Shown here one piece after another: positions 8,179-58,800 of a DNA stretch of 64,000 bases. Positions within the stretch are counted from its first letter, which is position 1. Every line of letters starts with the position of its first letter. Origin of the DNA: Cavenderia fasciculata (Eukaryota; Evosea; Eumycetozoa; Acytosteliales; Cavenderiaceae); the NCBI RefSeq assembly GCF_000203815.1, contig NW_004457737.1:2232001-2296000 (forward strand), written 5' to 3'. Below the pieces are notes generated by a model. The model worked only from the letters and a program-made list of their open reading frames with translations. It was not told the origin of the DNA and did no database searches. The position numbers were made by a program, and so were the translations under genes.

Positions 8179-11100
8179 ATGATAAATAATAATCATTCAC
8201 CAAGAAATCCTCTTGGATTTTTTTCACTTCTCAACAATGATCAACCAAACAACAACACCACCACCTCCATTTCAAGCACAAGTACCACTACTTCTGCCAA
8301 TCATGTTTTATCATCACCAAACAAGTCCAAACAGCAGGCTGAAGAAACCCATGAAAAGTATATGGTTTCATACAAGGTATCTGAATGTTCAAAACATTTA
8401 ACTTGTAAAAATGATAGAGATTGGTAAATATCAAAATTAAATTAAAAAAAAAAAAACAAAAAAGAAAGTATCCATTTTATTAATTATTTTATTATTTATT
8501 ATTATACAGTTTCTTTTATCACAAAATCGAAGAAAAGAGAAGATGTCCATTTGATCTAAATGGAAACTTAGTTTATTCCCACCTCCTTTGTCCAGAAAAA
8601 TGTGATAAAGTTAATGTATGACAATCAAATCACAACAAACAATTAATTATAATTTAACCAATATAATAATATTAATCTCTTTTATTTTATTTCTTTTTTT
8701 TTTATTCTTTTTTATTTAGTGTAAATTTTCACATAATGATGTAGAAGTTATGTACCATCCAACAATCTATAAAACCAAGATGTGTAATGATTTCGCGAGT
8801 AGCACAAATAAGTGTAAAAAGGGACGTTGGTGTGCCTTTGCCCATGGTGAATTGGATCTTCGTGTTGTGTCTAGATCAGATGGAGGAGTGAATGGTTCAA
8901 ATGTATCTTCATCGCCATCAAGAGTATCACCAACTTCCAAGCAATCCCATCACAATGGAAGCAGTCCATCAAAGTCACCTTATTCTGGTAAATCCATTGG
9001 TAATAATAATAATAATAATGGAAGATTCTCAAAGTCCAACAACAATAATGGTCACAGCCACAACAATAATAGTCATAGCAACAACATTAATAATTCCAAC
9101 AATGGTTTATTATTCAATCAATCACCAACATTATTAACAACTAATATTTCAAATTCTAAATATTATCCTGATCATTATGATCCAATTGCTATTGGTAATT
9201 TATTAAGTGTAGGTAAACAACATATAATGATAAATAATTGCAATATAATAATATATATTTATTAATTTATTAATTTTTTATTTTTATATAGAATGATATA
9301 ATTAGATTTGGAACTTTAAAGATTGATAAAAATGATAAACCATATGCATATGTTGATACAAATATGCTACCTGAAGATATATTGGCAACAATGGACGGTA
9401 TCAAGAAAGAAAAGATTGGTATTTTAAATCAATTTCATAGAAATCGTGCCATGGATGGTGATATTGTTGTTATCAAGTTGGACGGTTTGGATCAACAACC
9501 ATCACCACCATCACAACCATTACAAGATTCAAACGAAAGTGAAAACTTGTTTAAAGAATTGGCTGCTCTTGGAAATGGCTCCAACTCGTCATTGAGCAAC
9601 GAACAATCCAATCATCAAACCATACCCATTGGCATTCAAGAAAAGTGGAGAACTGGTTCAGTTATTGCAATTTTAAAATCCAATCACAAGACTGTCTACT
9701 CGTGCACGTTTAACAAACAAGTTGGTGACGTGCTCTATTTTACTCCATTGTTGGATAAAAAGGTTGAATGTATTTTGGTCAAACATCCACAAAGAACCAT
9801 CTTTAATCCTTCTCACTCTACATTTTATAAAATTGAAACTCAACTCTTATGGCCAACCAATTACCCTTTTGTTATTGGAGAAATTAAAGAAACCTATCAA
9901 TCTCATGATGAATTGGAACAAGAAATAATGGTAACCAAATCAAATCAAATCAAATCAAATATCATCTTTAATCAATTAATATTAATTAATTATTTTATTT
10001 TATTTTACCTATTATTTTTACCTTTAGTCATTAAGTTTAGAAAATGGTTTAAATGGTGAATTCTCAGAGGCACTTCAATTACAAGTTCTTGGCCTCAGAA
10101 ACAATATAAATACTGTCAAAAGAAAGGATTTGCGTAACTTTCTTACTTTTTCGATTCATCCAATCCAACAAGACATTCCAGTTTGCTTTTCGTGTGAACT
10201 GTTACCAAATGGAAATGTTAAAGTATGTAATAAGAAAGAGATTAATATTGATCAATATATTGGTATAAAGAACATATGTATTAATTTTATTTATTTCTTT
10301 CTTTCCTTTTTATTTGTATTTTTATTTAGTATTATACACATATTATTGATATTACAAATTATATTAAACCAAAAACATTTACAGACATTGAAGCAGCAAA
10401 CCGTGGATTTCACATTGATATGGGATCGTATTCATATCCATTACTACCAACCGAACTCAAAGAACAACTTTCACTGACACCTGGAAAGGACCAATATGCC
10501 ATCACCGTCGATTGGGAGCTATCAGAGAGTAACATTGTCAATACCAACATTTATTTTTCAGTCATCAACTCCAAGTGTAACCTGACCTATGCTCAATGTC
10601 AATCGTATCTCGAACCCAATGGTGTTATCGTCGGCTCTCCAAACCATGATTTAGTGGAATCTTTAAAGAGAATGTTTACAGGATTGAATCATTTCTATTT
10701 GTATTATGCCAAGAATACCTATGAATATCCACCTGTCAACTTTAGTTCTCAAGACCACTCGTTTATCTATACCATGGTGGAACAGATGAAGGTCATCTCC
10801 AACTATATCACTGGCAATATCACTCCTCTACCAAACCATCATTTTATTTATAAATGTTCTACTACAACTCCTCCTGCTTCCATCATCGACGAACTATTGG
10901 ATACTGCCAAGACTCACAACATTGTCTTTCCTACCATCTGTTCAAAGCAAAAGGATACCATCACACTACAAGATATCGTTGGAGATTTAAAATCTCATTA
11001 TCCACAAGGTTTAAATTATTTTCTATTTAAAATTGTAAAATTAATTAAATATCTTGGTATGTATAAAATATAAAAAAAACAAAAACAAAACAATATTTAT

Positions 11101-14100
11101 AAATACTAATTATTATTTTCTTTTTTTTTATTTTCTTCTTTTTAGAATCATATACATTTGATAAAAAAAGTTATCAACAATTCCCATTTTATTTGGAAAT
11201 CACTGATCCATTTAAAAGATATGGTGATATTTACAATCAAAGAATTTTGGCATGTGCATTGACCCGTTTACAACAACAAGATGCTTCGGGCCCAAACAAA
11301 CTACTATCTCCAATGGAGATATTTGATATCTTGCCACCATCTCAGCCAACCGGTCAACAGCTTTTGGATCATTTGGAGAAATGTAGAACAAGAACAGCAA
11401 AGTTGGAGAGACAGTATCGTGTCGCTTGCTTTACTCATCGTCTACGCGCCAAACCACTGTTTACCACCTCTACCATTGTCGCCATCACACAAGACAAGAT
11501 CGTCAAGCTTTGGGTTCCACTTTTAAGTGCCGTCTTTGATTTGGATATGAAGATGATCAATGGATGTACATCCATGTGGATGGATCAATCAAGCACACTT
11601 CAAACTCTATGGGATCAAAGATTCATTGGTATTGATTGCTCAGATTTCATTCCTCTCAAATCAAATCCATTATCACTTTCAACCATCAATCAGCCAATTA
11701 ATAACAGCCACCACAACAACAACAACAACAGCAACAATCATCATCATCATAACAACAATATTAGAAAGTCATTGGATGGTCAAATTCAAAAACCACAAGA
11801 TTCACGTTTAATGCCCATCAGTTACAAACTCTATGATTCACTTCAAATTCAAATCTCGTCTCATCATAGTAGAAAGGTTAGAACAAACGAGTATTCTTTG
11901 CAATTCCTTTTCAACAATGATTTCTTGCCATGGTGTAACGATCATTATCAAAAGACTGAATGTTTCATCAACTCCAAGTCTATTACACCAGTTGATAATT
12001 TCGATACTGAAGTCGCCTATATCAACTATTGGACCTCTATCATTGATTTGAATGCTTCTCTTGTATGTATAAAATAATAATAACAATAATAATAATAATA
12101 ATATCAAATATATTGGAAGCCATTATGAATATTATATTTATTTATTTTATTTATTTAATTATTTTTAGAATTCATTACATAAATCAGATTCAGTTTATGC
12201 TCATGATTTAACAGTATCTTGGAGTAAGAAAAAGAAGAAATATGTTGGTTCATTCAATTTGCCTGCCAATCAAATACCAAAGAACAACAAGATTTGTCGT
12301 GGTGATTTCCTTTGCCTTAGATATCTCGGTGAAGAGAAAACCATTCTATCATTACATGCATTGATTACCAAATCAACAAAAGATGAAAAGAACCTTGGAA
12401 TGTTACTTGTTAAATTCTCTACTAGATCTTCAAAATTAACACAAAAACATTATTCAGTTGTATGTAGAAATATATCAAAAAAAAAAGGATGTTATCATTC
12501 TAATTATTTAAATTATTTATACTAATTAACTTTGTTTTTTATTTATTTTAGGAAATAATATTTAGAGATGAATTTCATAGAATGTTGGCAGACAGTGTAC
12601 AAAATATGGTAAGTCCTTCTGATGAGATTCGTCATTTGGTATTGAATTCTCTACGTTCCAATACCGATGGTTCAAGTATTGTTAGAAAGGACTATAGCCA
12701 TAACGATTTTCAAGATTTTCAAGGTGCAATTGATTCACTTCCAATCAAACCAAATCAAGAACAACTCGTTGCACTCCATAGTTCACTCTTTAATACTGCA
12801 ACCATCATTCAAGGTCCATCTGGTTCTGGAAAGACTGCTTTGATATCTATTATCACTTATCTTGCGGTAGGTGATTTCAAACATCAAGGATTCGTTCCAA
12901 AGGTTTTAATTTGTGGTCCAAATGATTATAGTGTTGTAAGTATAAATATTATTTATTTTATATTTTAATTTAAATGAATATTTATTAATTTATTTAATTT
13001 TAGGATGTAACAACCAAATCTTTATTAGAATTATTCCCAACTTTGAAGGTATTAAGAGTTTATCATAGTTCACAGGAGACCAATGGCCATTTTGATAATG
13101 GAATCTACTCTATTCCAGAAGATATCAAAGGTATCACTTTGCACCACAAAATCAATGAAAAAAGATTATCTCTATCAACTTCAAGAGATAGTTTAACTTC
13201 TTTATGTATGTAAAAAAAAAAAGAATGCAAAAAAAAGAAATATTATGTTTCTATTTTAAATTTATTAACTTTTTATTTTTCTAATTTTAGATTTAAATGA
13301 TGCAAATGTTATTTGTTGTACTTCATTGACAGCAACTGAAAAAAGAATTATTGATTTAAATATACGTTGGGTCATTATTGATAATGCACATCAAGAGCTT
13401 GAACCACAATCAGTTGGTGCATTGTCCAAAGCAAATCATTTTATTCTTGTCGGTCAACCAACACCAGATATTCCAGCAAACCAAGTATTGATCAAATCAA
13501 AAGTCATCAAGGACATTTTCTCTACTCCACTCATCAAGAATCTTGCAAAGAAGATTCAACCATTCAATCTTGCCCATGTTTATTCAACTTCTATTTTTTC
13601 AAAACCTTTATTTTTCCAAGTATGTAAATTAGAATTATATATATTTACTCAATCTTGGTTAATATTTATTAATAATTTATTTTATTTATTTAGGATAAAA
13701 AAACAATTACATTTTTTGATATTAAAGGAGAAGAGTCTAGTGAATCATCACTTTTTGAAAAGGATCTATCTTTTAGTTTCTTCAAGTCATCATCATCAAA
13801 GGATATGGGAAATCTATTGAATCAAGAAGAAATCAACTTTACAGTTCACCTACTCCGTTACTTGATCAATGTTCTCCAAATTCCATCGTCTTCCATTTCA
13901 GTCGTCTCTCCATATCCATGTCAAGCAAGAAATATTCACAACGCTTGTATTCAAAAGCAATTTCAAAATCACAACTTATCCGTCAAGGTTTTATCAAGTG
14001 ATGGTTTTCAATATAATCAAAATGATGTAAGTAGAAATCAATCATTTAATTATTATTTTTTTTAATGAATATTTATTTATTTATTTAATCTTTTTAGTAT

Positions 14101-14570
14101 ACTATAGTATCAATGGTTAATAATAGATCTTGTGAATCTATTGATTCCTCAATTGGTTTTGAAAATGAAGAAAGCTTTGTAAGTCATCCTTATTGAAGAT
14201 CAAATCATATCACATTTTAATTATTAGAATACTTTATTAACCATGCATCTTCATTTAGATTAAAAAGATTCAAAGTTCAACAAGAAAAGGATTATTTATA
14301 ATTGGAAATATTGGTTCAATGAAAAACAAATCATTATGGAAACCTATCGTAGATCAATTTGCTCCTCATTATGTTCAATCGGTTGACACTAGCAAAAATG
14401 AAAAACCAATCTTTGCAACCGAGGACAAGGATGATTTCATTAAAATCGTGACCCTTCCAACGACAAACAACAACAACAGCCCAAATGAAATCCATCCCAA
14501 TGTCCTCCCTTTCTTCTCGTCACTCCAATTAACCAATTCCTTTTCCAACAACAACAATCAATTAAATTAA
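8179..14570 (+). CDS. Multidomain CCCH finger / RNB-like / UPF1-like helicase protein (HELZ2-like), likely catalytically degenerate
   Basis: Fourteen exons: 8179-8423, 8510-8615, 8720-9208, 9292-9930, 10028-10222, 10330-11056, 11146-12062, 12169-12459, 12552-12935, 13004-13205, 13291-13619, 13694-14026, 14098-14178 and 14259-14570. Together they code 1749 residues. Residues about 66-170 hold CCCH fingers, including C70-x5-C76-x5-C82-x3-H86 and a last finger after YHPTIYKTKMC, as in unkempt and plant TZF proteins. Residues about 240-900 resemble an RNase II/Dis3 module: a cold-shock part (RAMDGDIVVIKL), then RNB-like THIIDITNYIKP and PLLPTELKEQLSLTPG. Residues about 1275-1700 are a UPF1-type SF1 helicase with GPSGSGKT at 1291-1298. 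This domain order is that of HELZ2. The RNB acidic residues and helicase motifs II, III and V are altered (see findings), so a scaffold role is likely. Introns are short and T-rich; all junctions keep frame. Confidence 0.8.
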
Positions 14571-14887: not shown

Positions 14888-16877
<1,990 letters not shown>

Positions 16878-32546: not shown

Positions 32547-35500
32547 TTATTGATTTAATTTTGATAATAAATATTTCTTTTGATCGGGAGGTAAAGAATT
32601 TAATATTTGTACAAAACCGTCGAGAACAGCTTCATTGTCTTGACCATTGAATTCCATGATTTGTTGTTGAATGTATTGTGAACGCAGCTGCGAGATTCTT
32701 TCGGTGAGAAGGGTAAACGATTTGTCGATAAAGTCGGCACGCCATTCGTTGTTGTGCAATGTTTCGGCGGGGGTGTTGGCCGGTGCAATGTTGGCGATCC
32801 AGCCGTCGAGCAATTGACGACGCTGGAGACGCGAGAGCGTGGGGTTGACACGTGCAATGAGACGGAGTTGTTGTTCCTCAAAGAGACGGCATCGGAGACG
32901 GTTGTAAAAGTAGAATCTCGATGTCTTCCATTGGACAACGTCGGCAATGACTCCCTTGGCCTTCATACGACCCGGGGTGTCGTGGAGATCGGCAAATTTA
33001 ATGGCGATCTGTTGGTAGATGGAAAGGAGCTCCTTTTCACGGGCGGCAGCTTGGGCACGCAGGGGTTTGGCGTCGTCGGCACTGGCAGCTTGGGCAATCT
33101 CGGCGTCGAGCTGGATGAGACGGCTGTCGAGACGATGCATAGTGCGGATGAGCTCGGGGTCACGATACTTGATCTCGACGATGCCGTTGGGCTCGAGGAC
33201 ACCACCACGGGCACTCTCAGACGCGTACATTTCCATCATATCGAGATTGATGGTTGAGTCTAGTACGACCCAGGCACCACCACGCAACTCACCTTCGGGT
33301 GGGATGTATACAATGACTGGTTGTTTATAGTCGCGTAGGTTATCGACAATCATCGAACCAAACTTGAGTATCTCGTCAAACATGTCACGCATACCACCCG
33401 AGAACCCACGCCAGTTGGCGAGGATAAAGAGTGGTAGTTCTTCACCATTGTTAAAGTCGGCGATAGCTTGAGCCGTCTTGAATGAGGAATCGGGGTACCA
33501 CACCTGAGCAGCTTGCGACGAGACAACCTCTTGCGAGAGTGGGTTGGCTGGGTCAGCAGGGACAACCTTTTCAATGGTACGTGTCTCGACACCAATGACT
33601 CCGACTGGAATACCACCCAGACGGGCACGACCGCAGACGACTGTCTTGGCCCATCCACCTAATGTCTCGGTAAACGAGTCACGATCAAACAAACCACTGA
33701 TCCATACCAATGGGTCAATATCTGATGAATGTCCTTGAATCATATCGCGTATATTGTATTTGGTGTTGAGCGATGGGTCGAAATCAATCTCACGGTTGGG
33801 AGTATCGATTGGTGCTAGAATGGGCACCATCTCACCCTTGCTACGTGGTACGTATGACACCCAGTGCAAGATCGAGCGAATACCTGCCAACTCATCATTG
33901 ACAGAGATGTGAGACACACCATTTGGATACATGATCTGTGCACCACCCAACTGCTGGTTAGATTCATACACATCCTTGCCAAGCACCTTGTTCAATGCCG
34001 ATGCACCCGTTAGAATGATGGGTGCGTCGTTTTGGATGGTACGCTGACCAAGACGAACGAGGTAGGCGCCAATACCGACTGAACGACCAGTGACGAGGGT
34101 GATGGTAAAGATGTCCTTGTAGGCCTTGGACGTCTCTCCAGCAATCAAACCACTCCAACTGAGATTCTCAACACCAATACCATTCTTTTGACCGATAATG
34201 TCGGTGAGGATCCACTTGTCGTCTTGCTTGACTGCGCTGATGGCGTTGGTCTCGGCAAGACGTTGGTAATCTTGGTCTTCGAGGTAGAGTGCACGCACAC
34301 CCTTGGACGGGTCCTTGTCGTTGTTCCAGAGTACCTTGAACTTTTGCTTGACCTCGTCGGCCAGACCGATACGTGCACCCGAGTTGGACGATAGGTAGAT
34401 ACGCGGGATCTGCTCAGTACGAGCCGTCTCGGAGGCAAGTTGGAACAACAAATCTTCTTGTGGTCCAAACGACCCAATTTGATGAGTAATATCGTTGGCA
34501 ATAACGATGACTTGACGACCAGCAGGGTACTCTGGTGTGTAGAGCGTCATGCGCCATGCGACCATACCAATGTCGTTGTAGCCAATTGGACGATACGTCT
34601 CTTCGAGCTTGGGACGTATGTCTTCGGGTAGCTGGCAGAATGGGACGGTTGGAGGAACATCTGTCTTGGTGCCGGGTGCCAAGATGAGCTCGACGGCATC
34701 GACGACGGCGCGAGGAGGTGGGTTAACCTTTTTGGGATTGGCACGGTTTGCGTCCATGTACTCGACCCACAGCGACTGCAAAGCCTCTTGGAAGAGGTCG
34801 GGGAAGTCATAGACATAGGTCGTGTCAAGACGCTGTGCCTTGAAACGGTTACGTTGCACGGCGTCCATGATAGGGTAGGGGGTGTCGACGGGCATGCCCT
34901 CCCAGATACCACGGTTGCTGCCTGGCACGACGGCAAACACGAGTTGGCCGGCTGCGTTGAGTTGTTCATAGTAGCAGTACACTTGGAAGGCGTAGCCGGT
35001 TGGGTTTTGCACAAAGAAACGAACGGGGATGAGCTGGTTCTCCTTGCGCAATTTGCCCTTGACCTCGACTTGTCCAACACGCAGCTTCCACATACGTGCG
35101 CCGAGACGGTCACCAATCTCCTGCACGACATATCCAATCATACGCTCGTCAAACATGACCTCGGGTAAGATGTTGAGGAAGATGTTGTGGTTTTGTGCGC
35201 GTTCGTAGCGCTTGGCACTGGCGATGGTCATCTCAAGCGCTTCGAGAGACTCGGACAACATGGCTTCAATCTGGCTGAGCAAAATATCGACAATCTTGAT
35301 CTCATTGCTGCCCGAGAGATCACCATAACGCAACACTGAACGCACAAAGAAGCATCTGTCGGCGTCTGGATCAGTCTCACGCTTTCCACGTTCCTGTGCA
35401 TAGTAGAGATGTATACGCTGGCTCTGTGTGGGGACGTGTGAGATGTCAAAGTTGGACAGCTTACGTACTTCAAGATGGTAGGCCATGGCAGGCTCGATGT

Positions 35501-38500
35501 GACGGAAGATAGGGTCCTCGAGGTACATGTGACGCTCGCGGAATGTGTAGTATTTGGGTTGTTGACCGACCTCTCCGCAGCATACAAAAGTGACACGACG
35601 CACACGAGCAGTAATGAGCTCACGGTAGTTGCTCTTGAGGATGGCCGCAAAACGCACGGTCGCGCTATTCTCCTCTGCGAGTGTGTCGGGGTAGTAACCG
35701 GTGAGAACGACCGAGAGGATATCGGTTGACTCGCCACCTTGATTCTTGGGACGACCGCCGTTAAAGTCGTCCTCGACATTGTAATATCTGAGTATTTGTG
35801 GTAGTGTCTGTGCAAAGCTAGTCTCGTCGGCAAAGTGCACCATCATACCATATCGAAGCTTGCATTGGTCTTCGACAGCTTGTAAACTGTCGGTCGAGTC
35901 GGTACGCAGCATTGACAACCCGTTCATGATGGGGTTGTGTGAGCGCGAGCCATTCAAACCGGCACCGCCATTATGTGAACGCGAAAGTGCCATATGTTGC
36001 TGTTGCTGCAGTGTTGGGCTGTTGTTACCTGATGGCAGTGAGATGTAAAAGTGCCACTCTACACAGTTGAACCCGCGTTGCTTGGATCGCTCGTCAAGCG
36101 AGTCAGTCACACGGGTGTCCTCTACAAAGTATGAACGATATGAATGGCGTATATACGCCTCCATTGCAACCTTTCTCGTGGATGCACAGTCTGCTGTAAA
36201 GTTGGGCACGAGGATATCGCAAATCTCGGCCGTCTGTTTGGTCAACAATGACATTTCCTTGAGATAGGCAATTTGGTTGAGTGCTGGTGCATTGATTGAT
36301 GTTGGAGGTGTAGAGGATGAAGAAGATGATGATGTTGTAGAGTCAGTTGATCCCTCGAGATCGGCAGCAGACTGCTTTTGAATATCAATAATATTTTTGA
36401 TGGAACGACGTAGTTGGTCGACACGCTGGTCACCCGATGGCAGCTGACTGTTGACTATGATTTGTTTGGCACGCAACGAGATCTCAATGGATGCGCCAGA
36501 CAGGCCTGACAGCTTCTTGAGCTGGTCGGTATAGTCGGCGGTCGAGTTGGTGGCATCGATCTTTTTGAGGATGGTTTGGACGAGGGCATACTTTTTGCTT
36601 TGTGGGTGGATCGAGAGGGCAACGTCGCCAACCTTTTTAATGTCGTCCTTGTAGAGCTGACGCACGCTCTTGAGGACGGTCTGGATGTTGCGGTGCTGTA
36701 CCAAGTCCTCGAGTGTGATAAAGTCCTCGAGGATGGAGCGCACCGTGGCGATACGGGCACCGCCGGCGCCGTCGACGTAGCGTTTGGCGAGGTCAGCAAT
36801 CGGCGCGACGGTCGTAGCGATAGTCTTGGCAGCCGACTCGTTCTCGACCATCTGACGTGTCAGATAGTTGTTGAGACGGTGCAGGAGCACCTTGGAGGTG
36901 AACTGGTCGCGTTGGACGAGTGCATTGCTTATTTCCTCGCGGATCAACTCGCATAGCGGCGCGGGGATACGGTTATGAATCACCGACAAACTCTCGTTGA
37001 GCTCGTAGTAGGGGAGCAGGGGGTCGGTCATTTGCACAAACAAATTGTCGATCAGAGTCTGCACCGAGCACACTTCATAGCCCGTCAACACATTCTTGAC
37101 GGCCACCAAAGTGGCCTTGGCGAGTTGGTGTGGTTTCTCGCCACGGAGAATGGGTGGCTGCATGCGGTCGAGTGTTCCGGCAAACACGGTTGATTTCTGC
37201 ACGGCGCACCCTTCCTCGAGCTCGAGGTTGGCGATGATGGCGCCAGCACCCATGGCCCCACCCTCTGACAGGTGGAACTTGATACGTCCACTCTCGGGGG
37301 CGACGAGGGGCATGTACATCTTCATGACCTCGATTTCGGCATAGGCCGCGCCCTTGGAGACGACTGATCCGTCGTCGACGAGGTAACGCACGAGCTTACC
37401 AGGAGAAGGAGTACGCAAGATGGATGGATCGTACTCTTGTGAAAATGTGCATGTCTTTTGGTCAATCATCAGGCGCAACCCAGTGACTTCATCGCGGCCA
37501 TAGACTACATGTGTCTTGCCATTCATCATGACAATCAAACCACCGTCAGTCATGCCAACCACGTTAACGTCTACGATATTGGTCTTGTCGCGCACAAGCA
37601 CGATGGCAAAGCTGGTGGGTGACCGACGGATCACCTCGAATTGATACTTGATGTTGTGGTAGATGAGTTCGACGGGCACGATGTTGGCGAGCAGCTCAAG
37701 TGATGGCAGTTGACCAACAGTCACCTGGCCTGTAAACTCGACCAATCGTTGCTGGTAGGTGGTGTATGCTTTGTATAGTGCACCGCACAGTACGACAATC
37801 TGAGTGTCGGGTTTGTGCGACTTGATCTTGTCGGCGATACGTTTGTCGAGCCAACCCGTGTGGATGGCGTTGTTCTTAAAGTCGTCTGTCTCCAAGAGAT
37901 GGATAATGTACTCTACGGGCGTGCGAATGTCGCCACGAATCGAGATCTCTTTGAGTCCGAGCACCATGCTCTTGCGTGCGTCCTCTCTGGTGGGGCCCGA
38001 GGCAAAAATGTGGCCAAACTGCGAGTCGGCGTATTCGTGCAGGCCACCGTTGGCACCCACACTAAAGTATCCCCACACGTTGGGCGTGCTGCGAAACGTG
38101 AGTTCATGTATACCTCCCGAAGTGGGCTTGAAGCCTTCGTCGGGGTTCTCACCCGTGATACGCACGGCGATGCAGTGGCCCTTGGGTGGAAGACGCTTGG
38201 CATAGTCTTGAAGGTCGATAGCTGCGTCGCCAAAGGGTGTCTGGCCGTAGAGACGGCGAATATCTGGTATGCGGAACAACGGGATACCCATGGCAATCTG
38301 TAGCTGCGTGGCGGGCAAGTTGACACCCGTAATCTCTTCAGTGACTGGATGCTCGACCTGTAGACGTGGGTTAAGCTCGAGGAAAAAGTAGTCGCCGTCT
38401 GCAAACAGGTACTCGACCGTGCCGGCACCGACGTAACCCACTTCTTTGACAAGACGCACGGCTGCGCGCTCCATCTCGAGCCAGACCTCTGGTGTGGGGG

Positions 38501-39383
38501 CGAGGGCAGGACCTTCCTCGATAATCTTTTGGTGACGACGCTGCACAGAGCAGTCACGTCCGTTTAAAGAGATAGCTTCACCATACTGGTCTCCCACAAT
38601 CTGTACTTCAAGATGACGTGCGTTGGGCACGAGTTTCATGATAAAGACGGGCGAGCCTGGCACCTCTGACTGCACCTGACGAAAGGAAGCGGCCAACTCG
38701 TCCATCGAGGTGACCTTTCTGATACCCTTGCCGCCGCCACCCTCGCTAGCCTTGATCATTGCGGGGAAGCCGATCTTTTCAATGACCTCTTTGGCCTCGT
38801 CGACCGTCTCGACGGTTGCCTTGCGATAGATGGCTGCGTCGACACCACCCGTAGCCTGGTAGTCGACTGTTAAACCCTGTCCACTCCATGGCACACAGGC
38901 CACTCTTGCAGACTGCGCGACAATGGTCGATGCGATCTTGTCTCCGAGATCACGCATGGGGCCTGCGGGTGGGCCTATAAACGATATACTGGTGCTAGTT
39001 TTGCTCAGCAAGTCTGGCAAACGTGGGTTCTCTGATGCGTGGCCCCAGCCAGCCCACACAGCCTGCACGCCCGCGCGCTCGGCCAAATCCACAATTGTAT
39101 CTACATTGGCATAGTTGTTGTTGTTGGAGCCGCCCGGCACCTCGATGATCTGGTCTGCCATACGGATGTACTCGGCGTTGGCCTTCATATCCTCGGGCGT
39201 CGCCATCACCACAAACTCGATGGCTCGCTCATTGCCAAAATGTGTGTATGCCCATTTTCGAACGGATCTGATTGCTTTGACGGCTGCTATACCATTGTTG
39301 GCAATCAATATCTTTTTTATAATCTTTGTTCCATTTAGTTGATTAATGTATTCTTCCAATATCAATGATTTTGAATGGTCCAT
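32547..39383 (-). CDS. Acetyl-CoA carboxylase, eukaryotic multidomain type
   Basis: One exon codes 2278 residues. Order of domains: biotin carboxylase (about 15-510; KKILIANNGIAAVKAIRSV, ATP-grasp glycine loop EGGGGKGIRKV), biotin carboxyl carrier (EVMKMYMPL, biotin-accepting Lys688), a long ACC central region, then carboxyltransferase (about 1500-2180; PRIYLSSNSGARIGLADEV). It makes malonyl-CoA for fatty-acid synthesis and elongation in the cytosol. Length is close to yeast and animal ACC (about 2230-2350). The N-terminus begins only about 20 residues before the biotin carboxylase core, so the animal extension with the AMPK site is absent. A Ser-rich loop (DSTDSLQ) lies in the central region. 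Codon use is GC-rich compared with all neighbours, as for a strongly expressed gene. Confidence 0.97.
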   Translation of the reverse strand: MDHSKSLILEEYINQLNGTKIIKKILIANNGIAAVKAIRSVRKWAYTHFGNERAIEFVVMATPEDMKANAEYIRMADQIIEVPGGSNNNNYANVDTIVDLAERAGVQAVWAGWGHASENPRLPDLLSKTSTSISFIGPPAGPMRDLGDKIASTIVAQSARVACVPWSGQGLTVDYQATGGVDAAIYRKATVETVDEAKEVIEKIGFPAMIKASEGGGGKGIRKVTSMDELAASFRQVQSEVPGSPVFIMKLVPNARHLEVQIVGDQYGEAISLNGRDCSVQRRHQKIIEEGPALAPTPEVWLEMERAAVRLVKEVGYVGAGTVEYLFADGDYFFLELNPRLQVEHPVTEEITGVNLPATQLQIAMGIPLFRIPDIRRLYGQTPFGDAAIDLQDYAKRLPPKGHCIAVRITGENPDEGFKPTSGGIHELTFRSTPNVWGYFSVGANGGLHEYADSQFGHIFASGPTREDARKSMVLGLKEISIRGDIRTPVEYIIHLLETDDFKNNAIHTGWLDKRIADKIKSHKPDTQIVVLCGALYKAYTTYQQRLVEFTGQVTVGQLPSLELLANIVPVELIYHNIKYQFEVIRRSPTSFAIVLVRDKTNIVDVNVVGMTDGGLIVMMNGKTHVVYGRDEVTGLRLMIDQKTCTFSQEYDPSILRTPSPGKLVRYLVDDGSVVSKGAAYAEIEVMKMYMPLVAPESGRIKFHLSEGGAMGAGAIIANLELEEGCAVQKSTVFAGTLDRMQPPILRGEKPHQLAKATLVAVKNVLTGYEVCSVQTLIDNLFVQMTDPLLPYYELNESLSVIHNRIPAPLCELIREEISNALVQRDQFTSKVLLHRLNNYLTRQMVENESAAKTIATTVAPIADLAKRYVDGAGGARIATVRSILEDFITLEDLVQHRNIQTVLKSVRQLYKDDIKKVGDVALSIHPQSKKYALVQTILKKIDATNSTADYTDQLKKLSGLSGASIEISLRAKQIIVNSQLPSGDQRVDQLRRSIKNIIDIQKQSAADLEGSTDSTTSSSSSSSTPPTSINAPALNQIAYLKEMSLLTKQTAEICDILVPNFTADCASTRKVAMEAYIRHSYRSYFVEDTRVTDSLDERSKQRGFNCVEWHFYISLPSGNNSPTLQQQQHMALSRSHNGGAGLNGSRSHNPIMNGLSMLRTDSTDSLQAVEDQCKLRYGMMVHFADETSFAQTLPQILRYYNVEDDFNGGRPKNQGGESTDILSVVLTGYYPDTLAEENSATVRFAAILKSNYRELITARVRRVTFVCCGEVGQQPKYYTFRERHMYLEDPIFRHIEPAMAYHLEVRKLSNFDISHVPTQSQRIHLYYAQERGKRETDPDADRCFFVRSVLRYGDLSGSNEIKIVDILLSQIEAMLSESLEALEMTIASAKRYERAQNHNIFLNILPEVMFDERMIGYVVQEIGDRLGARMWKLRVGQVEVKGKLRKENQLIPVRFFVQNPTGYAFQVYCYYEQLNAAGQLVFAVVPGSNRGIWEGMPVDTPYPIMDAVQRNRFKAQRLDTTYVYDFPDLFQEALQSLWVEYMDANRANPKKVNPPPRAVVDAVELILAPGTKTDVPPTVPFCQLPEDIRPKLEETYRPIGYNDIGMVAWRMTLYTPEYPAGRQVIVIANDITHQIGSFGPQEDLLFQLASETARTEQIPRIYLSSNSGARIGLADEVKQKFKVLWNNDKDPSKGVRALYLEDQDYQRLAETNAISAVKQDDKWILTDIIGQKNGIGVENLSWSGLIAGETSKAYKDIFTITLVTGRSVGIGAYLVRLGQRTIQNDAPIILTGASALNKVLGKDVYESNQQLGGAQIMYPNGVSHISVNDELAGIRSILHWVSYVPRSKGEMVPILAPIDTPNREIDFDPSLNTKYNIRDMIQGHSSDIDPLVWISGLFDRDSFTETLGGWAKTVVCGRARLGGIPVGVIGVETRTIEKVVPADPANPLSQEVVSSQAAQVWYPDSSFKTAQAIADFNNGEELPLFILANWRGFSGGMRDMFDEILKFGSMIVDNLRDYKQPVIVYIPPEGELRGGAWVVLDSTINLDMMEMYASESARGGVLEPNGIVEIKYRDPELIRTMHRLDSRLIQLDAEIAQAASADDAKPLRAQAAAREKELLSIYQQIAIKFADLHDTPGRMKAKGVIADVVQWKTSRFYFYNRLRCRLFEEQQLRLIARVNPTLSRLQRRQLLDGWIANIAPANTPAETLHNNEWRADFIDKSFTLLTERISQLRSQYIQQQIMEFNGQDNEAVLDGFVQILNSLPPDQKKYLLSKLNQ

Positions 39384-43919: not shown

Positions 43920-45930
43920 ATGTATGTATATAAATAGTAACTATAACAATAACGATCCTCATTTTGTTATTAAACTCAATCTTATTTATTTATTTAAATA
44001 AAGGGATAAGAAATATATCATATTATTGTTTAAGAATATATACTTGAGAGAACAAGTTAAAAAGTTCTTTCCAAAACCTGACTTGGTCGAAGGTTTAAGA
44101 GTGTATCGTTATGATCATTGGCATACTGCTAATCAAATGTTGGAGTATGGTTATGGTGGATTGTTACTCGACAAGATCAACAGAGGTATTGTCGTTCCTT
44201 TTCAAGGCAACCAAGCTATCGAGTTGATATGTGAAAAGGTAACAGACTATGACATGTTTATGCAGTTTTACAACCTCAAAAGGGATGCATTTCTGTCAAA
44301 ACATCTCGTATCGTGTGCAATCAAAGGTGGAAATGTCAGAATTGTACAGACTCTTCTTGACCAGATCACTCCAATGACAGTCTGCACAGACAATGCCTAT
44401 GTTATGGCTGTCTATCATGGTCGACTCGATGTGCTAAAGTTGTTGATTGAAAGAAAGGTTGAATATTGTGCTGGTGACATATCTCGAAGCCTACAACTGT
44501 TGGATTCAGGCTGGACATCCAATGACCTATCTTGCTATGGTCTCCGACTCGACACCCTAACGATTCGAGACGCCACCGATGCCATGGCAGCATTCAACTT
44601 TCTCAAAAACAGTAAACAATTCAAATCAATACCCGATGTCTTCAACCAAGGTCCAGACTTTAATGAACGCAAAGGCAACTTTGGTCCATTTGTACGATAC
44701 GAAGAGTTTCTGAAAAGACATCCCCACATGCTTGACAACAGACCCTACCTCACTGAATACATTCGGTTGTTGCAGTCTGGTTCAAGTTTTGGCCGTTCAA
44801 AGCTTCAGCGCATCAAACACGAGCTATCCGATCCCAAACTCAATATTCAAGATTTACTTAAAGATAAAACGACAAAATGGTATAAAATACGAGCATTAAT
44901 CAAATGCGGGAGTTTGGATGATATGCCTGCCATCATTCGCAGCATCGATATTGGTGGACCCGAGGTGTTTGACGAAGCAGTTTCTCGAAAAGATGAAAAT
45001 GCACATTTGGTGGTTGAACTGTTACTCAGCAGTGGAATGAGTATCCCCCAACCTTGGCGTCGACGTAAAGTGGATTCGGATAAAACTTGGGATCTTCTCG
45101 AACCACTTTTACCACATGGATCTGAAAGAGAACCACAGAGAGACTCCTCGAATCATTATGTAGACAATAGAAAAGAATCAAGCAGAAGAGCAAATGTCAT
45201 TTGCAAATGTATGTCATTGGAATTGTTTTTCGTACATTGCCGTCAATACACCAAATACTCTCAATATGACCATGATCATTTGTATAGCGTCATTACAAAT
45301 GGAAGTGCCCAAAGTTTGGAATTTGTAAAGTCAATAGTACAACATCCAAAATTTCCAACCAAAGAGTCAATTTGTCTCACCAAGATTGCATCATCTGGTT
45401 CGATTCTAATGATTGATTATTTCAAGTCATTGTATCCATTATGTTATACCGATCGTGCACATTCACGTGCTCTCTTGGAATCAGGACAAGTAGATGTACT
45501 CAAACATTATATCACCAAACAACCAAAATTGAAACGTATTCTTAGCGGTCTTGTCACTCGAGCATATATCAAGTATCTCTTGACAGAAAACCATATGGAG
45601 ATGTTTCTATACCTTTTGAAAAAGGGGTATTTGGAATATTACAATGGTCTTCAATCAACGTCTGCATATAAAAAAGATCCAATTTGGAAAGGTATTATTT
45701 TATTTGCAAAGGATCGTTATAATAATCCTCAAGAAACAGATGATGATGATGATGATGAAGAAGATGAAGATGAAGAAGAAGAAGAGGAGGAGGAAGAGGA
45801 TGAAGAGAAAGAGGAAATCATAAAGATACAACCAAAAAGAAAAAAGCCAGAAGCAAAGCAAGAACCAAACGGCACCACTAAAACAAAAATGAAGAAGATT
45901 GAACAACCAAAAAAGAAATCAAAGAAATAA
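43920..45930 (+). CDS. Ankyrin-like family protein with acidic/basic tail, array copy 1
   Basis: Model: AT at 43920-43921, intron 43922-44003 (GTATGT...AAAG), then 44004-45930, so ATG is split AT|G and the protein (642 residues) starts MDKKYIILLFKNIYLREQV. No other ATG is available in frame before the conserved head. Helix-pair repeats follow (GGNVRIVQTLLDQITP, HGRLDVLKLLIERKVEY, SGQVDVLKHYITKQPKL). The tail has a run of about 30 Asp/Glu and then Lys-rich sequence with KRKK and PKKKSKK, good nuclear localisation signals. The function of the family is unknown; a nuclear or chromatin-linked scaffold is inferred from the tail. It is closest to the 46191 copy. Confidence 0.75.
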
Positions 45931-46190
45931 CTTTAAATTATATTATTATTTAATTATAAATAGTATCCATTTTCTTTCTTTGTTGCTTTGATCAATAAAA
46001 AAAAAAGTGAAGTTTTTAATATATATATAAATATAAAAAAATCAACTAGCTGAACTTCAATACTATTGCAAGTTCCCCCAAAAATACTTACTTTACTTCG
46101 AAACACACAAAAGATGATTGTTAAACACACAAAAGAACACTAGTAAAATGATTATTTCAATAGTAGTAGTTCTCAAACACAAATAGAATA

Positions 46191-48255
46191 ATGTATGTAT
46201 AAAATAATAACGAGAGTAATGTGATAATTAGTATTAATAAACTCAATCTATTTATTTATTTATTTAAATAAAGGGATAAGAAATATATCATCATTGTGTT
46301 TAAGAATATATACTTGAGAGAACAAGTTAAAAAGTTCTTTCCAAAACCTGACTTGGTCGAAGGTTTAAGAGTGTATCGTTATGATCATTGGCATACTGCT
46401 AATCAAATGCTAGAGCACAACCATGTTGGATTGCTACTAGACAAGATCAACAGAGGTATGGTCGTTCCTTTTCAAGGTAATCAAGCTATCGAGTTGATAT
46501 GTGAAAAGGTAACAGACTATGACATGTTTATGCAATTGTATAACCTCAAAAGAGATGCATTTCTGTCACAACATCTCGTATCGTGTGCAATCAAAGGTGG
46601 AAATGTCAGAATTGTACAGACTCTTCTTGACCGGATCACTCCAATGACTTTGTGTACATACAATGCCTATGTTATGGCTGTCTATCATGGTCGACTCGAT
46701 GTGCTAAAGTTGTTGATTGAAAGAAAGGTTGAATATTGTGATTGGGACATATTCCTCAACATAGAGTATTTGGAATCTGGACGACGTAGGGACCTATCTC
46801 GCTATGGGATCCAATCTGACGTCATAATGATTCGAGACGCCACCGATGCCATGGAAGCATTCGACTTTCTCAAGAACAATGAACAATTCAAATCAACAGT
46901 ACCCCATTACATATTTCCACGCTTGACCTCAGCCCAAGGCAACTTTGGTCCATTGATACTGTATGAAGAGTTTTTGAAAAGACATCCCCACATGCTTGAC
47001 AACAGACCCTACCTCACCAAATACATTCGATTACTGCAGTCTTCAGACCGACGTTACTCTCATTCAAATCCTCATTCAAGGTTTGAATGCGTCAAACACG
47101 AGCTATTGGATCCAAGACTCAATATTCGGTATTTACTTTTGGATCATGATACAACAGAGTGGTCCAAAAAAAAAGCATTGATCCAATACGGGAGATTGGA
47201 TGATATGCCGGCTATCATTCGCAGCTTACATACAGAGATTGATGGATCAGATATCTTTGAAGCAGCCGTGTCTCGAAAAGATGAAAATGCACATTTGGTG
47301 GTTGAACTGTTACTCAGTAGAGGAATGAGCATCCCCCAACCTTGGCGTCTATGTAAGGTGGGTTCAGATAAAACATGGAACCTTCTCGAACCCCTCTTAC
47401 CACATGGATCCGAAAGAGAACCACTGACCTCCTCTCCGTGGTATGAAAAAAGTCGCAAAGAATCAAAAGAAAAAGAAAGAATAGCTGATATCATTTGCAG
47501 ATGTATGTCATTGGAATTGTTTCTCGTACATTGCCGTCAATACACCAAATACACTGCATACTCTGAATACGATTATAATTCAAAATATGATCATTTGTAT
47601 AGTGCCATTACAAATGGAAGCGCCCAAAGCTTGGAATTTGTAAAGTCAATAGTACAACATCCAAAATTTCCAACCAAAGAGTCAATTTGTCTCACCAAGA
47701 TTGCATCATCTGGTTCGATTCTAATGATTGATTATTTCAAGTCATTGTATCCATTATGTTATACCGATCGTGCACATTCACGTGCTCTCTTGGAAATCAG
47801 GACAAGTAGATGTACTCAAACATTATATCACCAAACAACCAGAATTGAAACGTATTCTTAAAAGTCTTGTCACTCGAACATTTATCAAGTATATCGTGAC
47901 AGAAAACTATATGGAGATGTTTCTATATCTTTTTAATATGGGGTATTTAAAGTATTACCATGGTCTTCAATCAACATCTCCATTTAAAAGAGATAAAACC
48001 TGGAAAGGTATTATTTTATTAGCAAAGGATCGTTATAATAATCCAAAAGAAAAAGATGATGTAAAAGAAGAAGATGAAGAAGAAGAAGAAGAGAAACAAG
48101 AGGAAGAAGAAAAAGACGAGGAGGAAGAGGAAGAAAAGATACAACCAAAAAGAAAAAAGCCAGCAGAGAAAAAGAAAGAATCAAAATCAAACAACACCAC
48201 AACAACAAAGATGGATAAGAAGATTGAACAACCAAAAAAGAAATCAAAGAAATAA
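46191..48255 (+). pseudogene. Ankyrin-like family, array copy 2, frameshifted
   Basis: Start model as in copy 1: AT at 46191-46192, intron 46193-46273, coding from 46274. It is close to copy 1 throughout until one extra A in the GGAAATCAGG run (47793-47800; copy 1 has GGAATCAGG). This shifts the frame after ...RAHSRALLE and stops it at 47861. The remaining part (SGQVDVLKHYITKQPELK through the acidic and Lys-rich tail) is intact in the next frame to 48255. The shift is either a recent inactivating change or a sequencing error; all else is open. If transcribed it would make a protein lacking the last helix pairs and the nuclear tail. Confidence 0.75.
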
Positions 48256-48470
48256 CAATAAAGATACATAGATTTTACATTATATATTATTATTATCTAA
48301 AATTTATTATAAATCAAGAAAAATAAATTTATTAAAAAAGACAAAGGTTGCAAATATGTTTTTTTTTTCCACTAAACTTTACTTTGGTATGTTGTGTGAA
48401 ACAAAACGATCGATGAATAATGAATTTGTTGTTATATTATTTCACAGTCTACAATAAATAATGTATGTAT

Positions 48471-50508
48471 AGTAATAATATCATGTTTTATTTAAAAAGA
48501 TATCTCTAACTCTCTCTCTCTCTTTGCTTTGATTTCATAAAGGGATAAGAAATATATAGTATCTCTGTTTAAGAATATATACTTGATAAAGCAAGTGAAA
48601 AAGTTCTTTCCCACCCCCTACTTGGTCGAAGGTTTAAGAGTGCATCGTTATGATCATTGGCATACTGCCAATCAAATGTTGGAGCACGGACATGTTGGAT
48701 TGTTACTTGACAAGATCAACAGAGGTATTGTAGTTCCTTTTCAAGGCAACCAAGCTATCGAATTGATATGTGAAAAGGTAACAGACTATGACATGTTTAT
48801 GCAGTTTTACAACCTCAAAAGGAAATCATTTCTATCAAAACATCTTGTTTCGTGTGCAATCAAAGGTGGAAATATTAGAATTGTTACGACTCTTCTTGAT
48901 CAAGTCGATCCTATTACATTGTGCACAGACAATGCCTATGTCGTAGCTGTCTATAGTGGTCGACTCGATGTACTAAAGTTGTTGGTCAAAAGAAAAGTCA
49001 GCTACTTTGCTACTGACGTAGATCGTATCCTAGTTAATACCAGATATGGCACAAACCTATCCAGTAGTGGTCGAGTTGGGCAATTCAGCATCTTAAAGAT
49101 TCGAGATGCCATTGACGCCATGGAAGCATTCGACTTTCTCAAGAAGAGTAAACAATTCAAAAAAACAATACCCAACGCTAAAAAAGCAGAGCTCTACAAT
49201 GTCAAAAGCTCCGAGCCTCACTTTGATACATTCATAAAGTACCCAGACTTTCTGAAAAGACATCCCCACATGCTTGACAACATACCCTACCTCACTGAAT
49301 ACATTCGATTGCTACAGTGTGGTTTGCATGTCTTGTGCGTCAAACACGAGCTAGCCGATCCTAAAATCAATATTCAGGATTTGCTGAATTTGGATCAATT
49401 CGATTCTCAGCTGTCTCAACACGTAAAACCAGCATTGGTCCAATACGCAAGTTTGGAGGATATGCCAACTATCATTCGTAGCTTAAACTTTACTGCATTG
49501 GGTTATCGCCAAATATTTGAAGCTGCTGCTGCCCGACAAGATGAAGATGCACATTTGGTTGTCAAATTGCTACACGATAGTGGGATGGCTATACCAAACT
49601 ACTGGAATGGATACAAAGTGGGTTCACAAAAAACATGGGACTATGTCTCACCATTTTTATCACCAAGGTGCATCCCACAATTCCTGCCAGATACAAGTGT
49701 ACGTAGAGATACAACAAAAAGAATAGTTGAAGTCATTTGTGTATGTATGTCACTGGAAACTCTTCGCTCAAACAATCAATACTCTGTATCTGACTGTTTG
49801 TATCGTGCCATTGCAAATGCAAGTGTCCAAAGTTTGGAATTTGTAAAGGCAATCTTACAAGATCCGAAATATTATCGAGCTGTAGAGATGGACCTCACCA
49901 AGATTGCATCATCTGGCTCGATTCTAATGATCGATTATTTCAAATCATTGTATCCCCACCTTTATAAAGATCACGACCAAGTCCTCGCTCTCGTCAAATC
50001 AGGACAAGTCGATATGCTCAAACATTACATCACCATGCAACCAAAATTGAAGGATCTTCTTCAAAGCGGTCTTATCACTCGAAAAGATATAAAGGATATT
50101 ATGACTGGCGATCATTATGAAATGTTTCTATACCTTTTGAAAAAGGGGTATTTGGAATATTACAATGGTCTTCAATCGACCAATTCATATAGATGCAATC
50201 CAACCTGGAATGGTATTATTATATTTGCAAAAAATTGTCATAATAGAAAAGAAACAGAAGAAGATGAGAAAGAGGAAGAAGTAGAAGTTCGAGAAGAGGA
50301 GGAAAAAGAAGAAGAGGAAGAAGAAGATGATGAAGATGAAGAAGTAGAAGTAGAAGTTCAAGAATCAGAGGAAGAAGAAAAAGAAAGCAAAAAGATTCAA
50401 CCAAAAAGAAAAAAGCCAGCAGAGAAAAAGAAAGAATCAAAATCAAACAACACTACTAGAACAACAAAGAAGAAGATTGAACAACCAAAAAAGAAATCAA
50501 AGAAATAA
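48471..50508 (+). CDS. Ankyrin-like family protein with acidic/basic tail, array copy 3
   Basis: AT at 48471-48472, intron 48473-48542, then 48543-50508; 655 residues starting MDKKYIVSLFKNIYLIKQVKK. It has the same plan as copy 1 but is more diverged. Head and repeats are conserved (YDHWHTANQMLEHGHVGLLL, SGSILMIDYFKSLYP), with a variable middle, a longer Glu-rich tract and the same KRKKPAEKKKES...PKKKSKK end. The tail DNA is closer to copy 2 (AEKKKESKSNN in both), while the body is equally distant from both, which suggests exchange between tails. The upstream leader is not shared with copies 1 and 2. Confidence 0.75.
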
Positions 50509-55843: not shown

Positions 55844-58800
55844 ATGAGTCATAGACGTCCACCCCCTCTATTTCCTGCTTATGCAAAGGGGTCTCCTCCT
55901 CCACCTCCACCTCCTCAATTAGCTTTACCTATTCAACCTCCTCCTCCTCCTACTCCACCCGTGGAAGATACAAGGAGTAGTTCCCTACCACCTCCTCCTC
56001 CACCCCCTTCTACCTCGTCAGATGATCATCTTCCACCACCACCACCTCCTCCTCCTCCACCTATAGAAGATCCAACAAATAGTAGTACTACTCTACATCC
56101 ACCTCCACCTGTACCTCTTGATTATAAAAGGAAAACAGCAGCTGATTTCTTCTTTTCAACTGCTTCCTCTGCCTCTACTTCTTCATCTTCTTTATCTGAA
56201 GAACTACCTCCTCCTCCTCCACCACCACCTCCATCTGTACCTCTTGATCCAAAGGAAGCAGAAGAAAAAAGACTACTAGAAAGAAAAAAGAGAATAGAGC
56301 AAGCATTGATATCATATCAAAGAGATGCAAGTAGTAGTAGTGAAGAAGACGATACAAGTGATGACGATGATGAAAAGAAGAAGAAAAGAAAGAAAAAGGA
56401 TAAAAAGAAGAGTAAAAAGAAACATAAAAAGTTAAAAGGGGAAGATACTAAATTGTAAGTACATTAAAAGTAGAGCAGTTTACACTCAACATACATATAC
56501 TTACACATTATTTTGTACATTTAGATCTATATCATATTATGATGATAAGGGATATGTAACAGACTATAAAGGAGACAGATCATTATTGATCAATGATATG
56601 ATACCAAAGGATAAGTTGGCATCCTACAAACAAGACCGTTCAAGTGTATTGGGTTTGGATGGATACTCGTTGGTGTTTAACAAACATAAAGGATTGGTTT
56701 TGGAACCAACCGATTCAATTGGTTATACAGGTCTAACAAGATATTGGTCAAAGTTACAAAATAACAACAACTCAAAGTCGTCGGTTGTATCAACCATCAA
56801 GATTACTCCATCCCTATTGTCAACCGATCCATTTACAAAGAATCAAGATTATATTGTATTTCCAAAAGATCAAAAGGATGATGATAATGCATTATTGGAT
56901 GATAATAGTAATAGTAATTCAGATTTAGTTTTAAAAAGAAATGCAGAGTTGAATGAAATGGTTTCAAAGGATCCACACAATGTAAAGCTTTGGTTAGAGT
57001 TGGCTGAATTTCAAGACGAGTTTGATATCTTTAATTTCCTTGGTAGTCGTAGACAAAGGGCTGGTGTGGTGAGCAAGGCAAGACGTGCAATCATTGAGAA
57101 AAAGATTGCGATTCTGCGAAGGGCGTTGACTGAGAATCCGCAGTCTGAGCGCTTGACAATCGCCTATCTCCACACAGCTGCCAAGATTTGGGATCCAGAA
57201 CAAATACTCCAATTGTGGCACCGAGTACTAGACGCACAGAGTGACGCGTTCTTAAAGTCACAGGACCGATCCAACACGACCGTCTTTTCAGAGACATTGT
57301 GGCGCGAGTACATTGACTTTGTTCAATCCTATTTCAAGGGATTCACAGTGACACACACGAGAACTATCTATCTCAACGCCATCAAACGAATGCTAGCTAA
57401 ACGAAGATCACTCAAACCCAAGGAAAAGGGGTTCGACGAACAGGTTGGATTGGTCGAACGCGCCATACTTGTGATCGTGTCTCAATGGACTCGATTTGAA
57501 CGACAGGCTGGATACAGCGAGCGCGCTATTGGCATCTACCAGTCACTGATCGAATTCAATCTATTCATGCCACACAAGCTATCAACACAGCCCCAGAACA
57601 CCATCATAGCCAATTTTAAAACTTTTTGGGATAGTGATCAACCAAGAATCGGTGAAGTGGATGCTGTTGGTTGGAGCAATACCAAGTTGGACGCAGAGTT
57701 AGATAATATGACACTGGAAGAAATGGAGAAACTTTTAGCACAACAAGAGCAAGATGAACTAGACCAAGAAGAAAAAGAAAAAGAAAAGGAAAAACAACAT
57801 TATAAAAAAGCATCCGACTTTTTCTTTGATCTTCCTCCTCGTTCACCAAAAGATATGGATATGAATCAAGAACAAGAAGAACAAGAACAACTCATAGAAG
57901 AAGAAAAAGAAAAAGAAAAAGAAGAAATTGAAATTGAAAATAGACAAATGGAATTGATTGAAATTAAACAAGAACAAGAACAACAAGAACAAATACAAGT
58001 AAAACAAGAAAAAGAAATTCAATCAAATAATAACAATAATAATATAAAGATAAAAGAGGAACAACAACAACAAGAGACGATATCGATAATAGAGAAATAT
58101 GATGGACCATATTCAGAATGGATATATAAAGAAATGACCAAAGAATCAAAGGAATGGTTACCAAGTAAACTATTAGATGATGTTGAAATGGATGATGATG
58201 AAAAGAATCAATCAAAAGAAGAAGGAGATGATGATACAGAGAGAATAGTATTATTTAATGATATAAAGGATATTCTGTTTCGTATTGTCCGAGAAGATTA
58301 TAAATTGGAATTGGTGTACCAGTTTTTAGATTTTCTTGGCGTTGCAAGAGACGAAACTGTACAAATGTCCATTCTACCTAGATATTCATTTGACAATCCT
58401 CTTCGTAGAGAATCTTCAAATTCAATTGAAGATAATCTATCATCTTTATTTTTAAATTTGGAACAGAAATCATCATCATCATCATCATCATCACAAGTTG
58501 AACCAACATGGTCAAAGGCATTTAATATATTTAATCCAATTAAATTATCAAATGATAAATTTGATTTTATAGAGTATGTAATATCATAATAATTTCACCA
58601 TACCATTTCTAACATAATCATTTCACTTACTTTTATTAGGAGAATATTTAAACAAAGTTTAAATAGATTTAAAGGAAATATAGAATTAATGATTCATTAT
58701 ATTCAATTAAAGTCAACTAGGAATATAGATGAATCTATACAATTGTGTAAACAACTATTGGAACAAAATAGAAATGCTGTTATTCTTTATGACACCTATG

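Follow-up and report, generated by a model that had tools for sequence, protein, structure and literature searches.

A CCCH–RNase II–UPF1-type fusion gene with degraded nuclease and helicase motifs in the social amoeba Cavenderia fasciculata

We analysed a window of the Cavenderia fasciculata genome, meaning the whole 64,000-nucleotide stretch of DNA (G000:C1:2232001-2296000, G+C 0.36; source genome of 30,995,898 bases in 21 contigs), and found a gene of 14 exons whose product joins three CCCH zinc fingers, a Dis3-type RNase II/RNB module and a UPF1-type SF1 helicase module in one chain. Three of the four catalytic aspartates of the nuclease are replaced, and helicase motifs II–VI are degraded. 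By analogy with known proteins of similar make-up, the product is probably a non-catalytic RNA clamp, that is, an RNA-binding regulator that would repress selected transcripts or route them to decay.

Gene model and domain make-up

The locus covers positions 8179 to 14570 of the window on the + strand, starting with an ATG at 8179 and encoding 1749 amino acids plus a stop codon. The open spliced frame of 14 exons bears out the span and length proposed in an earlier note on this DNA.

8179-8423, 8510-8615, 8720-9208, 9292-9930, 10028-10222, + strand: exons 1-5
10330-11056, 11146-12062, 12169-12459, 12552-12935, 13004-13205, + strand: exons 6-10
13291-13619, 13694-14026, 14098-14178, 14259-14570, + strand: exons 11-14

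All 13 introns are GT-AG and 68-107 nt long, with a G+C content of 0.13 versus 0.34 in the exons. Such short AT-rich introns, together with polyN tracts, give the genome a dictyostelid look. With training on 7,986 codons from other window ORFs of at least 300 aa, the codon score of the model frame was positive in all 14 exons (0.04 to 0.21 per codon), while both shifted frames scored negative in each. Homology also runs across the exon joins: the UPF1 alignment passes in a single piece through 8/9, 9/10, 10/11, 12/13 and 13/14, apart from a gap of one residue near 10/11, and the RRP44 alignment does so through 5/6 and 6/7. The donor of intron 5 (GTATGT at 10223) joins NGNVK to YYTHIIDITNYI, fitting the RNB alignment. 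Least sure is the join at intron 3, whose donor, GTAGGT at 9209, is the sole in-phase choice among four candidates. In exon 8, the in-frame upstream stop is the TAG of the acceptor and the earliest in-frame ATG lies well within the 1B region, which leaves the helicase module without an independent start in this exon. The same argument is weaker for the join between the fingers and the Dis3 module, because the in-frame Met of exon 4, which likewise opens at the acceptor TAG, is found at aa 305, within the MAFFT-aligned region and upstream of the phmmer match. Judged by its sequence, the locus encodes one real, intact, fused gene.

A pattern scan, Pfam and phmmer located the three modules in this chain, as the earlier note had described, and the HMM searches it had proposed returned RNB and AAA_11 matches that are both over their cut-offs.

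8386..8845, + strand: three CCCH fingers, aa 70-86, 109-122 and 139-159 (pattern scan)
9292..10063, + strand: cold-shock-domain (CSD)-like region of the Dis3 module, aa 281-505 (assigned by position)
10121..11264, + strand: RNB domain, aa 525-840 (PF00773, E 6e-35; RRP44, E 1e-21)
11454..11930, + strand: tentative S1/OB domain with an N/H-rich insert, aa about 904-1062 (position after RNB as in Dis3)
12202..12560, + strand: UPF1 1B-like domain, aa 1118-1206 (PF18141, E 9e-4; the UPF1 phmmer alignment spans the region)

In finger 1 the third Cys codon is split by the exon 1/2 splice, and in finger 2 the third Cys codon opens exon 3. While the CCCH pattern of the fingers holds, their proposed unkempt type is borderline: zf-CCCH_UNK matched aa 132-166 in the full-length Pfam scan (E 1.6e-6, 28.4 bits) below its cut-off of 31.1, and reached 35.8 bits at the locus in a genome search, the genome's best score, with one other match below the cut-off.

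The RNB match scored 121.5 bits against a curated cut-off of 29.3, placing the protein in the RNase II/RNB superfamily at the level of the fold; the TIGR02063 RNase_R model matched with E 8.6e-28 and 97 bits, far under its equivalog cut-off of 597.85. The nearest solved structures by phmmer were RRP44/DIS3 (1e-21), followed by DIS3L1, DIS3L2, RNase R and Ssd1, in a search that returned 27 sequences with E up to 10. Upstream of RNB, the RRP44 phmmer alignment begins at about aa 320 and the MAFFT alignment at about aa 287; the Pfam scan of the protein gave no separate CSD match. Similarly, there was no Pfam match to an S1 domain in the protein. An AlphaFold model of exon 7 reached a mean pLDDT of 60.5 with 68 RNase R rows as input, with seven strands of at least three residues, and 30.4 from the single sequence. 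Foldseek matched this model best to RNase R and, lower down, to Rrp44, with a weak best E of 3.7e-3 (121 matches with E up to 10, zero at 1e-3 or below). We keep the S1 label tentative because these matches are weak and partly circular, the other input rows being RNase R.

In the C-terminal part, AAA_11 (E 1.2e-22, 81.4 bits) and AAA_12 (E 2.1e-12, 47.4 bits) both exceeded their curated Pfam cut-offs. The UPF1_1B profile, at 19.6 bits, did not reach its cut-off of 28.5; together with the coverage of 1B by the UPF1 alignment, the two AAA matches place the module among UPF1-like SF1 proteins at the level of the fold. Its nearest solved structures were UPF1 (1.6e-20), then NAM7, ZNFX1, Sen1 and SMUBP-2 (phmmer, 21 sequences). 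Pfam found no match to the N-terminal zinc domain of UPF1 in the locus protein.

Residue losses in the nuclease and helicase modules

Alignments located the two former active-site stretches of the nuclease:

10151..10192, + strand: former RNB active site SIHPIQQDIPVCFS, with H537, D542, P544 and V545 in the four Asp columns
11196..11228, + strand: second active-site stretch, EITDPFKRYGD against HFTSPIRRYxD, with K824 in place of the first Arg

Three of the four aspartates of the D-x5-D-x-D-D signature are thus lost, the loop lacks one residue through a deletion, and DPFKRY stands in place of SPIRRY. In a control sample made up of the best 80 of at least 297 bacterial relatives and all 77 viral-contig relatives, the four Asp columns held Asp in 157 of 157 sequences. 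The SPIRRY arginine was also present in 157 of 157, a count that is biased for the bacterial rows because this stretch was part of one bacterial search pattern; the four aspartates were in none. RNase II proteins without these aspartates are taken as inactive. Mutation of Asp at these sites abolished nuclease activity in diverse RNase II subfamilies, as described in PMC8097288. With H537, D542, P544 and V545 at the catalytic positions, the locus protein falls outside the RNase II/RNB enzymes as defined by the four catalytic aspartates.

For the helicase, alignment gave the following motifs:

12813..12836, + strand: intact Walker A GPSGSGKT, aa 1291-1298
13371..13475, + strand: motifs II and III, IIDNAH (N1430 in the Glu column) and VGQPTPD, aa 1426-1460
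13563..13619, + strand: motif IV region, QYRMHP reduced to VY plus a four-residue gap, aa 1490-1508
13991..14306, + strand: motifs V (FQGRE to FQYNQ) and VI (LTRAR to QSSTR), aa 1608-1662, across two exon joins

Motif II, DEA or DES in relatives, reads DNA, with the Walker B Asp kept and the Glu lost. Motif III has GQPTPD in place of GDxxQL, the arginine of motif IV is absent, and in motif VI a Ser is aligned to the arginine of TRA, a placement that other alignments could move by one or two residues. We aligned nine SF1 relatives from the same genome, among at least 13 other loci: all nine have the Walker B Glu, the motif III GD and Q, and the Arg of motif IV, and all five that reach motifs V and VI have the motif V Gly and the motif VI Arg. 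Among loci outside the alignment, inspection by eye found MEEA at C4:158k, DEA at C3:2277k and DES at C18:459k; the sequence at C5:1629k stops short of the Walker B motif. Motif I is the only one fully intact in the locus protein, which falls outside UPF1-like SF1 enzymes as defined by motifs I–VI. Since Walker A and the Walker B Asp are kept, nucleotide binding may remain, and 'disabled' applies to motifs II–VI. The earlier observation that both modules lose catalytic residues holds at the level of sequence.

Furthermore, the losses extend beyond the active sites, as many other invariant columns are changed. Of the RNB columns invariant in four intact paralogues, the locus protein keeps 33 of 76 (3 gaps); for the helicase the figure is 35 of 74 with four paralogues, or 44 of 97 with three after dropping the row without Walker A. 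These counts describe broad drift and claim no statistical concentration at the active sites. Identity to each of three Dis3-type paralogues is 21%. In the RNB tree, where no row was identified as Dis3L2, the locus branch is 6.7 changes per column long and joins no supported group; bacterial RNase R rows are nearest by path, a placement without support. The helicase branch (4.5 changes per column) likewise has no supported placement, and the genome's own UPF1 is nearest among seven paralogues by path and identity (24% over 494 columns), again without support in the tree. A search of the genome with a 1410-residue query revealed no close paralogue: among at least 15 matching stretches (16 candidates scored, a lower bound), the four off-locus ones had 26-29% identity. 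For helicase relatives in viral contigs, two pattern matches were obtained and none was confirmed.

Sequence error as the cause of the losses was considered and ruled out, the losses being many, present in both modules and partly multi-base. Some of the active-site codons need at least two base substitutions and so do not represent single read errors.

Proposed function and rival explanations

For the nuclease half, fungal Ssd1 offers the best precedent by analogy; with Sts5 it belongs to the RNase II pseudonucleases of the Dis3L2 branch. The locus protein resembles these in having an RNase II body with catalytic Asp replaced, and tentatively also in carrying an insert in the S1 region. Ssd1 proteins have sites for Cbk1, an NDR kinase; a pattern search for this type of site, sought as an Ssd1 feature, found none in the locus protein. 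According to the description in PMC8934651, Ssd1 has Ser, Val, Glu and Phe at the four Asp sites, where the locus protein has His, Asp, Pro and Val, and it binds RNA at a new site, its channel being blocked. CCCH fingers and a helicase, both present in the locus protein, do not figure in that description of Ssd1.

For the helicase half, UPF1 is the closest solved relative, the 1B region included, and differs in that motifs II–VI are degraded in the locus protein. UPF1 is described as gripping a DNA hairpin in ATP-free assays, with the 1B/1C protrusions determining the grip (PMC6138625), which could serve as a model for ATP-independent holding. The CCCH fingers would then choose the RNAs, the Dis3-type body without its metal-binding aspartates would hold them uncut, and the UPF1-type core, lacking hydrolysis and coupling motifs, would hold them without unwinding. 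Transcripts clamped in this way might be translationally repressed or handed to partners in the decay machinery, similar to the presumed action of Ssd1. A scaffold role of this kind had been suggested in the earlier note, and with the Ssd1 precedent (PMC8934651) it is the natural reading. HELZ may be compared for its outer parts: as described in PMC6769256, it carries a CCCH motif and, C-terminal to it in the same chain, a UPF1-like SF1 core, and it drives repression and decay of bound mRNAs via CCR4-NOT. That description of HELZ includes no RNB domain, which the locus protein has, and the PAM2 motif, a HELZ feature, was found zero times in the locus protein.

An alternative is that the protein is an orthologue or close functional equivalent of HELZ2, that is, an antiviral or anti-retrotransposon effector whose fusion was inherited from an ancestor common with animals. 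This is unlikely. The parts list is indeed similar: a single chain carries RNB, then a UPF1-like helicase, and also zinc fingers, which human HELZ2 has in its name. In the account of PMC9839780, HELZ2 degrades RNA in vitro from 3' to 5' and its triple Asp mutant does not, and the RNase-dead mutant had a less than two-fold effect on LINE-1 restriction, so a dead RNB alone would be compatible with such a role. However, HELZ2 has two helicase domains flanking RNB (PMC9839780), whereas the locus protein has one, C-terminal to RNB, has lost both active sites and starts with a block of three CCCH fingers. Moreover, a double Walker A mutant of HELZ2 was severely impaired in LINE-1 inhibition (PMC9839780), and motifs II–VI are degraded at the locus. 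Among solved structures UPF1 is the closest match to the helicase, the genome's own UPF1 is nearest in a tree that gives no supported placement, and HELZ2 was absent from the solved-structure matches of both the RNB and the helicase phmmer searches. What remains of the 'HELZ2-like' label is a comparison of parts, by analogy; kinship is not established, and the claim that the protein works like HELZ2 is weak because its helicase motifs are degraded. The antiviral role also proposed in the earlier note, drawn from the HELZ2 analogy alone, is unsupported. An origin in defence against RNA parasites has been argued for nonsense-mediated decay and CCCH proteins (PMC5031192).

It is similarly improbable that the nuclease is dead while ATP, bound at the intact Walker A, switches the affinity for RNA. 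Walker A GPSGSGKT and the Walker B Asp are indeed intact amid degraded later motifs, which would suit an ATP-gated clamp. Residues of motifs IV, V and VI, however, couple the nucleotide to RecA closure, and these are missing. We regard it as very unlikely that the gene is decaying under relaxed selection, open yet functionless: the long tree branches and the broad drift beyond the motifs would fit, but the frame stays open for 1749 codons, all 13 introns are canonical and every exon shows coding codon use, which argues against it, although the changes at two or more bases of some active-site codons suggest that the losses are old. The least likely explanation of all is that two or three adjacent genes were wrongly joined, for although reading slightly past the donors of exons 3 and 7 reaches a stop in each case, the GTAGGT donor of intron 3 is less usual and Met 305 of exon 4 could in principle start a Dis3-type gene, exon 8 has no usable start ahead of the 1B region, introns 3 (83 nt) and 7 (106 nt) are within the lengths of the others (68-107 nt) and homology spans many exon joins.

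Returning to the non-catalytic clamp, the wider claim that the gene represents a dual-pseudoenzyme family of social amoebae, in which an RNB and UPF1-type fusion, familiar from an interferon effector of animals, exists in Amoebozoa too and both motors were traded for RNA recognition, is possible though somewhat doubtful. If true, RNase II-derived regulators arose outside fungi as well, here with a dead helicase fused. Pseudonucleases as such are already known, and PMC8097288 describes at least four losses traced in fungi; the locus gene adds an RNB loss in a social amoeba within a three-module fusion whose second enzyme is also lost. It would thereby allow a direct test of whether losing catalysis while keeping a grip on RNA has repeatedly given rise to mRNA regulators, and it bears on whether the RNB-helicase fusion predates animals. 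Among the papers listed by literature searches, with subscription journals mostly outside their coverage, none dealt with such a fusion in an amoeba.

Related genes in the genome and neighbours in the window

Of the eight other RNB genes found in the genome, six were included in the nuclease-site alignment. Five of the eight carry the full Asp signature (C14:3203k, C2:248k, C7:1751k, C7:164k and C18:162k). A divergent RNB gene, L015 (G000:C5:150332-151258), reads DPETSMGIDD, with the second signature Asp changed to Gly, and has TPIRSF where SPIRRY is expected. L016 and L018 (G000:C5:563804-564496 and 567134-567697) lie in tandem and are near-alike, with an RNB-like domain that is degraded: where the active site is expected they have SPLTPSKDDIALG or a close variant of it, SPIRRY is replaced by SPSSYY, and the frame of the second copy differs near the end, as if shifted. 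From these sequences, L016 and L018 are possibly further pseudonucleases, and at least one, probably three, of the other RNB genes appear degraded, so the lost RNB site would not be unique to the locus gene. Amoebozoan RNB proteins outside Dis3, Dis3L1, Dis3L2 and Dss1 are named aRNIIL, and not pursued, in PMC8097288; the locus gene, or the degraded RNB genes on contig C5, may belong to this group.

Two of the helicase loci, L024 (G000:C18:458358-461576) and L025 (G000:C7:310568-313786), lie on different contigs and share about 2 kb of near-identical DNA over an SF1 helicase exon, showing 2 differences from base 1216 onward of the 3219-base loci. Their similarity points either to a duplication that is very recent or to a duplicate made in assembly.

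Directly downstream of the locus, at 15245-16874, lies a protein kinase gene with Pkinase and Pkinase_C matches, a make-up that we take to be NDR-like. Three tandem ORFs of 642, 529 and 655 codons at 44002-50505 have near-identical starts and ankyrin matches under the cut-offs, and on their sequences they look to be a young local family. At 56436-58586, the window encodes an NRDE-2 family protein (Pfam 7.5e-77), the family being named for its need in RNA interference. On the - strand, a single-piece ORF of 2278 codons (32550-39383) matches acetyl-CoA carboxylase from biotin carboxylase to carboxyl transferase, and is intronless across its length near the 13-intron locus gene.
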